This document shows, in pieces, positions 2,168 through 6,094 of a stretch of 32,266 bases of DNA. Position 1 is the stretch's first letter, and each line of letters starts with the position of its first letter. The DNA is from Acidobacteriota bacterium (GTDB lineage Bacteria; Acidobacteriota; Blastocatellia; Pyrinomonadales; Pyrinomonadaceae), in NCBI GenBank assembly GCA_021323895.1, contig JAJPKD010000093.1, forward strand, positions 1 to 32,266. Reading direction: 5' to 3'. The position numbers were made by a program, and so were the translations under genes. The notes beneath the pieces are model-generated. The model was not told the DNA's origin. It made no database searches and saw only the letters and a list, made by a program, of their open reading frames with translations.

Positions 2168-2230
2168 ATTATTCAGCGAGCTATTTAATCTTCACCAATT
2201 ATTCAGCGAGCTATTTAATCTTCACCAATT
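2168..2230. repeat. Tandem 30-bp duplication covering the 3' end of glmM
   Basis: Two exact head-to-tail copies of a 30-bp unit that begins TTATTCAGCGAGC (2169-2198 and 2199-2228). The second copy contains the glmM stop codon (2215-2217) and its last codons. The first copy is therefore a duplicate of the gene end, placed just downstream. The exact identity suggests a recent slippage duplication. Confidence 0.9.
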
Positions 2231-3594
2231 TCGCCCTTAATCACTTCGGCTAACTCCTGCGCGCGAGTGGTTACATCTCCCTCGTCTTCACCTTCGATCA
2301 TTACCCGCGCCAGAGACTCAGTTCCAGAATAACGCAGAAGCAACCGGCCCCGATCACCGAGCGCTCGCTCGATTTCGTGCGCCAGTTCCTGAACCGACGG
2401 CAATTCTTCGAAAGGTATTTTCTCGCGGACACGAACATTCACAAGTATCTGCGGAAAACGCTTGAATCCTTCGGTGAGCTGGCCCAGGCGCTTGTTCTCA
2501 TGGTTCATTACCCGCAGGAGGTTGATCGCCGTGATCATCCCGTCACCTGCGAGACTGATCTTCGGAAAGATAATGTGCCCCGACTGTTCACCGCCGAGTG
2601 CAGCGTTTGACTTGAGCAATTCTTCGAGCACGTACTTGTCGCCTACGTCTGTCCGCATTAGTTTGATATGGCGGGATCGCAGCGCAACTTCTAATCCCAA
2701 GTTCGTCATCACGGTCGAGACAACCAGATCGTTCTCAAGCTCCCCGCGCGATTGCATGTAGTTCGCCAGCACCCACATGGTGGCGTCGCCATCGACGAAC
2801 ATTCCGTCCGCATCGACGAACAGCGCGCGATCCGCGTCACCGTCGAAGGCAATGCCAAGGTCTGCGCGTTCAGTCAACACTCGCTCTTGCAAGCCCTCGA
2901 TATGCAGTGAGCCACAATTGAGATTGATGTTTCTGCCGTCAGGCTGATTGCTAATTGCAATGACGCGCGCACCCAGTTTCTCGAACAACAGCGGTGCTAG
3001 TTCAAACGACGCGCCATTCGCGCAATCAATAACGATTTTCAGCGCGGCTAGCGATAGATCATGAGCAACTTCATGCTGAAGAAAAGCCAAGTACCGATCA
3101 TGTAGTTCGAGGTCGCGAGGTTTCGCTTCCTTCTCTTCAATTTGGCGCAAACCCAAATCTCGAAAGCGATCTTCCGCAACATCCTTTTCAATCTGTCGTT
3201 CAGTTGGGTCATCGAGCTTTTTGCCTGACGGCGCGAAAATCTTGATGCCGTTGTCTTCATACGGATTGTGCGATGCGCTAATCACCACGCCCGCGTCAGC
3301 GCCGAGATTGCGCGTGAGGAACGCCACCCCCGGCGTGGTAATTACGCCGGCTGATTCGACTTCAGCGCCCAGCGATTTCGCGCCAATAGTGAGATCACGC
3401 TCGATTGCTGGTCCGGACTCGCGCGTGTCGCGACCGATCACGATTCGCGGAGCACGCCCCGGGTGTTGTTCGGCAAGGTGCGCAGAGAGCGACGCTCCAA
3501 TGACGCGAACGGTGACGGCATCCAACGGAAACTGCCCCGCCTTGCCACGGACACCGTCAGTGCCGAAAAGTTTTTTTGATTTTTCCGGCTGCAA
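2215..3594 (-). CDS. glmM: Phosphoglucosamine mutase
   Basis: Converts glucosamine-6-phosphate to glucosamine-1-phosphate on the way to UDP-GlcNAc for peptidoglycan. The family start KKLFGTDGVRG is clear. The phosphoserine loop ISASHNP (catalytic Ser about residue 108), the metal-binding DGDADR and the C-terminal phosphate-binding loop LLRYSGTES follow in order. From the TTG at 3594 the protein is 459 aa, close to the usual 445-450. No ATG or GTG is available near the family start; the only options are this TTG or another at 3672, which would overlap the ybbR remnant. The gene is last in cdaA-ybbR-glmM, the conserved order in many bacteria. The missing good start probably reflects the deletion that removed most of ybbR. 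Confidence 0.95.
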   Translation of the reverse strand: MQPEKSKKLFGTDGVRGKAGQFPLDAVTVRVIGASLSAHLAEQHPGRAPRIVIGRDTRESGPAIERDLTIGAKSLGAEVESAGVITTPGVAFLTRNLGADAGVVISASHNPYEDNGIKIFAPSGKKLDDPTERQIEKDVAEDRFRDLGLRQIEEKEAKPRDLELHDRYLAFLQHEVAHDLSLAALKIVIDCANGASFELAPLLFEKLGARVIAISNQPDGRNINLNCGSLHIEGLQERVLTERADLGIAFDGDADRALFVDADGMFVDGDATMWVLANYMQSRGELENDLVVSTVMTNLGLEVALRSRHIKLMRTDVGDKYVLEELLKSNAALGGEQSGHIIFPKISLAGDGMITAINLLRVMNHENKRLGQLTEGFKRFPQILVNVRVREKIPFEELPSVQELAHEIERALGDRGRLLLRYSGTESLARVMIEGEDEGDVTTRAQELAEVIKGEIGED

Positions 3595-3638
3595 TTTGTC
3601 TCTGGAATTCGTACCTGGAAGTCGATCGAAGAAATTGA

Positions 3639-3794
3639 TTATCTCGCCGCACGGCCCGAAATCAAAAACCAAAGGACCAGCGTGATCGCCAGTGCCAGCA
3701 GTTTGAGGCTCCAGTCCTCGATAAAGATCCGCCGCACTAACCGCTCAAATGCATTGCCAGTTTCCGGCGGCCTTCGTGTTTCGCGCAGCGGCAT
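3639..3794 (-). pseudogene. ybbR: Truncated YbbR/CdaR: membrane anchor only
   Basis: This 51-codon frame lies exactly where ybbR (cdaR) sits in cdaA-ybbR-glmM clusters, 8 bp after the cdaA stop. It encodes a basic N terminus and then the block FIEDWSLKLLALAITLVLWF, which matches the first helix of YbbR proteins. It stops after ISGRAAR. YbbR-family proteins normally continue for 200-400 residues of extracytoplasmic YbbR repeats, and none of that is present before glmM starts. The simplest reading is an internal deletion that removed the YbbR repeats and joined the anchor to the glmM start region. It may still be translated as a small membrane peptide that touches CdaA, but that is speculative. 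Confidence 0.75.
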
Positions 3795-3802
3795 AATGTC
3801 CG

Positions 3803-4660
3803 TTAGGCCGAGGCCACCTCCTCAGCTTCCGCAGATTCGGTCGCATGGGGATCCGCGCCTTTTCTCGACGCGTTGCGTCCTTCGATTTCTTTATAGATCG
3901 CCGCGCGCAAACGCGTCGGGTCGAGCGCGCGCTTGATTCTTCCGCGGCGCACGAATGATATCAAACCGGTCTCTTCAGAAACGACAATGGCGACGGCATC
4001 CGAATCTTCGGTGATTCCCAACGCGGCGCGATGACGCGTGCCCAGGTCTTTCGACAGCAAAGGATTCAGCGACAGCGGCAAAAAGCACGATGCCGCCGCG
4101 ATACGATCCCCGCGCACGATGATGGCGCCATCATGCAAGGGCGAAGCCTGGTTAAAGATCGAAACGATTAGATCGTAACTCAGCTCCGCATCCAGTCTCA
4201 CCCCCGCGTCAACAATTCCCTTCAGTCCAACATTGCGCTCGATAACAATCAGCGCGCCGGTTTTGGTCGAAGCCAGAGTAGTCGCGGCCAAGACAATCTC
4301 GTCGTAAATGCTTGCGCCAAACTGACCGCGACGCTTTCGCGAAAAGGGCAAACGAAAGCGATTGCCAAAGGTTATTAATCCCTGACGGATCTCGTTCTGA
4401 AACAGAACAATAATGGCAAAGCCAACGTAGATGAGTGCCCCGCGCAGAACGAACTCCAGCGTTACGAGTCGCGCATAAACGGAGAGCCAATATAGAGACG
4501 CGAAGACTGCCAGGCCCGCAGCCATCGGCGCCGCGCGCGTGCCGCGCAAAAGCTTCAGCACGCCGTACACGACCAGAAACACGAGCACGATGTCCGCGAT
4601 CGAACGAAGCTCGATCAGGCGAGCCAGGTATTCATTCATCGGTGCCAGAACCAGCAGCAT
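3803..4660 (-). CDS. cdaA: Diadenylate cyclase, CdaA type
   Basis: Makes c-di-AMP from two ATP. About 285 aa: three membrane helices (about 22-38, 44-63, 70-88), a short linker, then the DAC domain (about 110-250). Both catalytic motifs are intact: DGA (177-179, in SPLHDGAII) and RHRAA (209-213, in GTRHRAALGI). The C terminus is an extra Ala/Glu-rich tail. The ATG at 4660 gives seven residues before a second ATG at 4639, and the second fits the family start better. The partner gene ybbR is reduced to its anchor, while glmM, the third member, is whole. In studied Gram-positive bacteria CdaR and GlmM modulate CdaA, so loss of the CdaR sensor domain would change control here (inference). Confidence 0.95.
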   Translation of the reverse strand: MLLVLAPMNEYLARLIELRSIADIVLVFLVVYGVLKLLRGTRAAPMAAGLAVFASLYWLSVYARLVTLEFVLRGALIYVGFAIIVLFQNEIRQGLITFGNRFRLPFSRKRRGQFGASIYDEIVLAATTLASTKTGALIVIERNVGLKGIVDAGVRLDAELSYDLIVSIFNQASPLHDGAIIVRGDRIAAASCFLPLSLNPLLSKDLGTRHRAALGITEDSDAVAIVVSEETGLISFVRRGRIKRALDPTRLRAAIYKEIEGRNASRKGADPHATESAEAEEVASA

Positions 4661-4825: not shown

Positions 4826-5953
4826 CTATTTCGACCGCAATCGGCCGCGCCGCAGGAAGCCAACCAACTGGCCTGATTGATCGACCACGGCGACCGCGCC
4901 GACGCCGTTCTGCTCGATTAATTGATTGACACTTTCCAGCGTGGCGTTTTGCGGGACGAAGAGTTGCGAACTCACCGTACGCATCGTGTCGCGCACGCGA
5001 AGATTGCGCCAGCGCTCGCGGGGAATCTTCTTGAGATCTTCGAGCGAAAGAATGCCCAGCAAACGTCGATTCTGCGCGACCGGAAAACTCGCGTGGCGGT
5101 GCATGGGCAGAACTTGATCGATGAAGTTACTGATCGGCAGATCAGGCTCGAGTGAAACCGGCGGCGACATCGCGTCGGCCACGGTTGCCGGCTCGCGCGC
5201 GCTGCGCACGACGCTGGTCGCGGCGCCCAACAAAAATACCCCGACCAACACCGACCATAGGCCCATGAAGTACGCGCGAAACGTCGGCGCCACCGCCATA
5301 TAGATTCCAAACGCAATCAGCACCAACGACATCAACTGGCCGCAAAAGCCCGCTATCCGGGTTGCTTCGCGAATGTTGCCGCTGCGCTTCCAGATGATCG
5401 CGCGCAACACGCGGCCGCCGTCGAGCGGATAACCAGGAAATAAATTGAAGACCGCCAGCAACAGATTGCCGGCGCCGATGAAAAAGAAGAAGGCGGTGCC
5501 GAAATTGAATCGCAGTGTCGCCGTGACCAACATTCCGCCAAACGCGATCAGCGAGAAGAGGAAACTAGCGGCAGGCCCAGCGACTGCGATGCGAAATTCA
5601 GCTTTGGGATTTTCCGGCTGCGTCTTCAGTCGCGCGAGTCCGCCAAATGGATGCAGCACGATCTCTTCGATTTCGATTCCTTCGGTCCGCCCCATCAACG
5701 CGTGTGATAGTTCGTGTCCAAACACCGAGAGGAAGAGCGCCAGCGTGGTGACGATTCCCAACGTCCACGCGAGAAAATCGCCCGTCGGTGGAATGCGCAG
5801 CGTGCCGAGTTGCAGCGGGTACTTGCGCACGTTCGCGGCGATCAGCGCGACGCTCATCGCGAACACAATGAACCAGCGATAGTCGATGCGCACCGGAATG
5901 CGGTAAACGCGCGCGACTAGAATCTGTTTCTTGAAGATGGTTTTGAAATCCAT
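4826..5953 (-). CDS. Site-2 protease family (M50) metalloprotease with CBS pair
   Basis: Intramembrane zinc metalloprotease that cleaves membrane-embedded substrates. The protein is 375 aa with several membrane helices. Zinc ligands are in HELSH (about residues 80-84), and the second motif NLFPGYPLDGGRVLR supplies the third ligand Asp (about 178). The C-terminal half carries two CBS domains (about 260-310 and 323-370), which usually bind adenine nucleotides. This is the SpoIVFB-like M50B-plus-CBS architecture. The ATG at 5953 is chosen; a TTG three codons upstream lies in a repeat. The gene sits between the nucleotide cyclase and cdaA on the same strand, so adenine-nucleotide sensing by the CBS pair is attractive, but that link is inference. 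Confidence 0.92.
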   Translation of the reverse strand: MDFKTIFKKQILVARVYRIPVRIDYRWFIVFAMSVALIAANVRKYPLQLGTLRIPPTGDFLAWTLGIVTTLALFLSVFGHELSHALMGRTEGIEIEEIVLHPFGGLARLKTQPENPKAEFRIAVAGPAASFLFSLIAFGGMLVTATLRFNFGTAFFFFIGAGNLLLAVFNLFPGYPLDGGRVLRAIIWKRSGNIREATRIAGFCGQLMSLVLIAFGIYMAVAPTFRAYFMGLWSVLVGVFLLGAATSVVRSAREPATVADAMSPPVSLEPDLPISNFIDQVLPMHRHASFPVAQNRRLLGILSLEDLKKIPRERWRNLRVRDTMRTVSSQLFVPQNATLESVNQLIEQNGVGAVAVVDQSGQLVGFLRRGRLRSK

Positions 5954-5956
5954 CGC

Positions 5957-6094
5957 GGCCAAGGGCGAAGCGCAAAAGGGCCAAGGGCGAAGCGCAAAAG
6001 GGCCAGGGGTTAGACGCTCGTGGTCGCAGGATGTTCCAGAACCAGCCCTCGCGCTCTTTGCTCCTAACTCTTAGCGCTTTGCCCTTTACGCGCT
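5957..6094. repeat. Heptad-repeat inverted element, locus 1
   Basis: Arm 1 (5957-6013) is an exact tandem of a 22-bp unit (5957-5978, 5979-6000) plus a partial third copy. It is built from 7/8-bp words such as AAGGGCG and AAGCGCA. Arm 2 (6051-6094) has 7-bp words such as GCGCTTT and GCCCTTT, complementary to arm 1. Arm 1 lies directly upstream of the protease start codon. Arm 2 overlaps the stop of the cyclase gene. Confidence 0.6.

Follow-up and report, generated by a model that had tools for sequence, protein, structure and literature searches.

Why does the gene between cdaA and glmM in an Acidobacteriota genome hold only 51 codons, and is what remains of it still at work? CdaR (YbbR), the regulator of the diadenylate cyclase CdaA/DacA in Bacillus, Listeria and Staphylococcus, is encoded in the gene order cdaA-cdaR-glmM. 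The same order is present in the window, that is, the whole stretch of 32,266 nucleotides analyzed here, which comes from a Pyrinomonadaceae genome (G000; 4.4 Mb, 95% complete, 322 contigs, a metagenome or draft assembly). CdaR likewise begins with a single N-terminal transmembrane anchor, but the short gene of the window, here referred to as mini-cdaR, encodes 51 residues against about 300, with no YbbR repeat and nothing sizeable outside the membrane.

The gene between cdaA and glmM

The genes concerned lie on the minus strand in the order M50 protease, cdaA, the 51-codon ORF, glmM, a TPR protein and, further on, rpsL (Table 1). Mini-cdaR follows the cdaA stop (3803) after 8 nt, and 44 nt are left between its own end and the glmM TTG, so that no YbbR repeat fits in, just as the preliminary description had claimed; a frameshifted YbbR downstream was rejected for the same want of room. 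The two flanking enzymes are also whole, as described before, and both score above the curated cut-offs: CdaA matches the DAC domain PF02457 (E=1.5e-41) and TIGR00159 (228 bits, cut-off 189), and GlmM matches TIGR01455 (536 bits, cut-off 448). The CdaA of the window also has its membrane N-terminus, for which the CdaA_N family gave 23.6 bits, just under its cut-off of 23.8.

Table 1. Features of the mini-cdaR locus in the window, and related loci elsewhere
Feature	Location	Strand	Remarks
mini-cdaR, 51-aa anchor-only CdaR	3639..3794	-	ATG 3792-3794, TAA 3639-3641
mini-cdaR product sequence	3639..3794	-	MPLRETRRPPETGNAFERLVRRIFIEDWSLKLLALAITLVLWFLISGRAAR
29 codons, RRIFIEDWSLKLLALAITLVLWFLISGRA	3648..3734	-	protein identical in G000 and G004, 17 nucleotide differences
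predicted single transmembrane helix	3657..3713	-	W28-S46, Kyte-Doolittle mean 2.0
spacer with fossil of former cdaR 3' end	3592..3638	-	leads into glmM TTG
cdaA, diadenylate cyclase, 285 aa, intact	3803..4660	-	PF02457, TIGR00159
glmM, phosphoglucosamine mutase, intact	2215..3594	-	TTG start 3592-3594 common to relatives
M50 metalloprotease with CBS domains	4826..5962	-	upstream neighbour of cdaA
CdaA-CdaR fusions, family f3	L136-L144		G038, G042, G046, G050, G054, G060-G063; some Chloracidobacterium-like, of two contigs and 3.7 Mb
genus pgpH loci	L151 (G000:C64), L152, L153, L154, L155, L156		

A Pfam scan of the 51-aa product matched no family, PF07949 (the YbbR repeat) included, and mini-CdaR is therefore no YbbR protein by domain definition. 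The product nevertheless aligns with the CdaR N-termini of 40 out of 60 relatives, far beyond chance, and is 76% identical to that of the sister species G004. The conserved transmembrane anchor is present, complete with the K, A, I, L and W that do not vary in the family profile; in full CdaR, six of the nine invariant columns fall in this anchor. Moreover, the gene occupies the place of cdaR between cdaA and glmM, and descent from a full CdaR is supported by a graded series and a fossil 3' end in close relatives (see below). Judged by sequence, mini-CdaR is thus a CdaR by descent and position. The earlier reading of the middle gene as CdaR cut to its anchor holds on these alignments, while the conserved unit starts at RRIFIEDW and not at WSLK as first proposed. 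A full ybbR elsewhere in the genome was also sought and none was found, the 95% complete genome of G000 containing no YbbR domain; the extracytoplasmic part has been lost permanently. From the arginine-rich N-terminal side of the helix, an N-in orientation is predicted.

Stepwise loss of the YbbR repeats

Relatives of the same family mostly possess a CdaR of about 300 aa with two PF07949 matches, in which the alignment shows two or three repeats. Within the genus (members G000-G006), four species (G001, G002, G003 and G005) have a CdaR of about 150 aa with one YbbR repeat, corresponding in the alignment to the second one of the long forms, and G000 and G004 have none. In a tree based on the concatenation of five proteins, G000 and G004 group together (100/100) as sister to G001 and G003 (100/100), G002 and G005 stand outside and G006 branches off first within the genus (92/90). 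The repeats have thus been lost stepwise along the tree: several, then one, then none. Across the 162 genomes of the class, the anchor was recognized in 139, and frames shorter than 100 aa away from contig ends occur only in G000 and G004. The other short frames of the class were set aside, for they lie at contig ends (G021, G035, G091), are split by a frameshift (G095) or contain masked Ns (G135).

The counterpart in G004 bears on whether the reduction is real. G004 is another species of the genus with a separate metagenome or draft assembly of about 170 contigs; it carries a 51-codon ORF in the same place, and no YbbR domain was found in its genome. Because the neighbouring proteins of the two species share 77-90% identity, i.e. 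differ by 10-23%, the two genomes are independent, and the same structure in both shows that mini-cdaR is not an assembly artefact. An assembly collapse that removed the YbbR part, which the preliminary description had allowed for, can hence be given practically no chance. The frame stops at the same site in both species (after GRAAR and GRAVK), the spacers are nearly equal in length, and each retains the fossil of the cdaR 3' end before the glmM TTG; in the window, this spacer aligns with the last cdaR codons of G002 and G005. The shared stop site and fossil spacer point to one deletion in the common ancestor of G000 and G004, whereas two independent deletions with identical ends would strain the explanation. 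The comparison with close relatives proposed earlier therefore dates the deletion to this ancestor, after the earlier repeat loss in the genus.

We also searched 396 genomes of the phylum for anchor-only CdaR, and the matches listed contain at least one further case. It belongs to G330, from a distant Acidobacteriota genus of family f70 (G330:C44:12500-15500, L166), where cdaA is followed by a frame ending in VRRLVTHNLGWKLLCLGVAILLWLLLVAADNRV at its stop and then, within a few bases, by glmM. No YbbR domain was found in this genome, which is 99% complete, and its congener G420 (L168) has a 247-aa CdaR frame with a YbbR domain. These sequences indicate that anchor-only CdaR has arisen independently at least once more.

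Other arrangements were seen as well. G242:C31 (L167), from a further distant family of the phylum, encodes a one-repeat CdaR in a 142-aa frame. G058 (G058:C14, L111) has CdaA without a recognizable adjacent CdaR and no YbbR in its genome, so CdaR is not required by every CdaA.

Conservation of the anchor

Is the short gene maintained, or is it a leftover? G000 and G004 share an uninterrupted run of 29 anchor residues although the codons for it differ at 17 nucleotides, and synonymous sites between the two are near saturation. In neutral simulations with as many changes, about 10 amino-acid changes arose on average and none of 200,000 runs reached zero. The pN/pS ratio is 0.022 for a 28-codon anchor block; cdaA has 0.119 and glmM 0.215. 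Residues 1-20 of mini-CdaR, on the other hand, vary freely between the two species, which confines the conservation to the anchor. A similar distribution is found in two pairs of one-repeat species, where constraint on CdaR is strongest in the anchor (pN/pS 0.053 and 0.170) and weakest in the YbbR repeat (0.198 and 0.380). We infer that the anchor has been under strong purifying selection ever since the deletion; the comparison is one of two sequences, and the contrast is large. Such selection on the remnant marks a maintained gene.

A decaying pseudogene, i.e. a functionless remnant, might be expected from an internal deletion that left a fossil 3' tail, in a genus that is overall shedding parts of its c-di-AMP system. 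However, decay does not explain anchor residues that stay unchanged close to synonymous saturation while the N-terminal codons beside them are free, nor the independent case of G330, which ends likewise. This reading is strongly disfavoured, and we regard it as very improbable.

Alternatively, the only purpose of the ORF could be translational coupling between cdaA and glmM. It starts close behind cdaA, and one-repeat species have a cdaR stop that overlaps with the TTG start of glmM; in G000 and G004, however, 44-46 nt now separate the stop from that downstream start, and coupling by overlap is thus lost. Furthermore, coupling requires no particular amino acids, which are the very feature conserved here, and this explanation too appears quite improbable. 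Dual coding with an in-frame upstream extension of glmM was considered for the same stretch and excluded, because the extension frame is open in G000 and closed in G004.

The wider c-di-AMP system and the proposed role of mini-CdaR

The reduction is not confined to CdaR. In the congener G006 (100% complete, 30 contigs; L122, L165), a search found no DAC domain, no CdaR and no 7TM-HD hydrolase PgpH. Both losses are clean. The M50 gene of G006 directly abuts glmM, the anchor having gone together with cdaA, and the hflX-like and HIT genes, between which pgpH lies in the remaining species of the genus, adjoin each other. PgpH itself is about 550-610 aa long in these other species, against about 820. 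Pfam found the 7TM and HD parts in PgpH of G000, G002, G003, G004 and G005 and gave no match to the extracellular domain 7TMR-HDED in these five, while the domain is present in G014 and G034; for G001 the shortening is judged from frame length only. In the alignment, the first helix is joined nearly directly to the 7TM part. PgpH, a different protein encoded on another contig, has thus undergone a loss of its outside domain parallel to that of CdaR and kept its catalytic HD part. In G023 and G009 (L159, L161), members of other genera with full CdaR, 7TMR-HDED is partly deleted. The losses in CdaR and PgpH are therefore not strictly tied, and the PgpH ectodomain loss is older or independent.

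Mini-CdaR is, then, a middle step in a wider stripping of the c-di-AMP system. As to the loss of the CdaR ectodomain itself, the preliminary description was correct; what it missed was the maintenance of the remnant, the wider stripping and the independent recurrence. Its suggestion that CdaA is thereby uncoupled from its usual envelope signal is plausible. Since the extracytoplasmic domain of PgpH is also removed in the genus, c-di-AMP turnover appears to have left the control of these outside domains, and extracytoplasmic sensing would have been discarded from both synthesis and breakdown. As a separate observation, the c-di-AMP riboswitch RF00379 has one match in the genus (G003:C319:1583-1732, L132; 58 bits), which may be foreign because the G003 genome has 5% contamination.

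The partner of the bare anchor is most likely CdaA. CdaR and CdaA interact via their transmembrane domains and are fused in some streptococci (PMC10243994), the contact being made through the CdaA transmembrane region (PMC8573169); both papers relay the finding from full-length CdaR of Listeria. In the class of the window, nine genomes of family f3 encode CdaA-CdaR fusions, 642-685 aa long (Table 1). In both sets of fusions CdaR works physically tied to CdaA; they retain the YbbR part, whereas the window protein is separate and anchor only. A reading in which the anchor works as a small membrane protein but has another main partner, e.g. another envelope protein, is unlikely in view of this contact and the natural fusions, the operon position of the gene and its loss together with cdaA in G006.

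As for structures, a comparison by sequence with solved ones identified no CdaA-CdaR complex: 9g69 is a diadenylate cyclase of 292 aa, and those matching CdaR are only isolated YbbR domains, e.g. 4qdy and 5hqh. The mode of CdaR action has been called unclear (PMC8573169), and CdaR has been reported both as an activator and as a repressor, with an effect whose sign differs between species (PMC8573169, PMC9259658). Deletion of cdaR in P. gingivalis raised c-di-AMP (PMC9259658), as did a transposon mutant of cdaR in S. aureus (PMC11520302), while an earlier S. aureus deletion left it unchanged under standard conditions (PMC5207132). GlmM inhibits CdaA in B. subtilis and S. aureus (PMC8573169, PMC6368335).

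We consider it likely, on the sequence evidence above, that mini-CdaR is a derived CdaR kept as a small membrane subunit which contacts CdaA via its helix. In this scheme, the CdaR that has lost all YbbR repeats persists as a 51-residue single-pass protein of the inner membrane. Its helix would lie alongside the transmembrane region of CdaA, where full-length Listeria CdaR is reported to bind. The anchor may constitutively set or stabilise a state of CdaA, or it may aid CdaA assembly, and the sign of the effect would not be predictable. GlmM would be left as the remaining CdaA regulator encoded beside mini-cdaR. The retained anchor argues that the contact with CdaA itself persists, and its conservation points to an effect on CdaA that the anchor can still exert by itself.

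Small single-pass subunits such as KdpF, CydX and AcrZ bind and tune larger membrane proteins through a short helix. Mini-CdaR, an anchor-only derivative, probably works like a small regulatory subunit of this kind but is presumably not homologous to them; it comes from a larger sensor protein that has been stripped.

More generally, and more tentatively, at somewhat less than even chances, the transmembrane helix may be the true effector of CdaR and YbbR a dispensable sensor, so that lineages giving up envelope sensing would repeatedly reduce CdaR to a free-standing micro-regulator of CdaA and strip the outside domain of PgpH, as a stage en route to the loss of c-di-AMP. The anchor-only CdaR has arisen at least twice and is under strong selection. 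In it, the part that binds CdaA is parted by nature from the part that senses, with no need of engineering, which makes the open question of CdaR action testable. In addition, species with one repeat, with the anchor only and with no c-di-AMP enzymes form a graded series within the genus, along which one may ask at what point a second messenger that is usually essential can be dispensed with.
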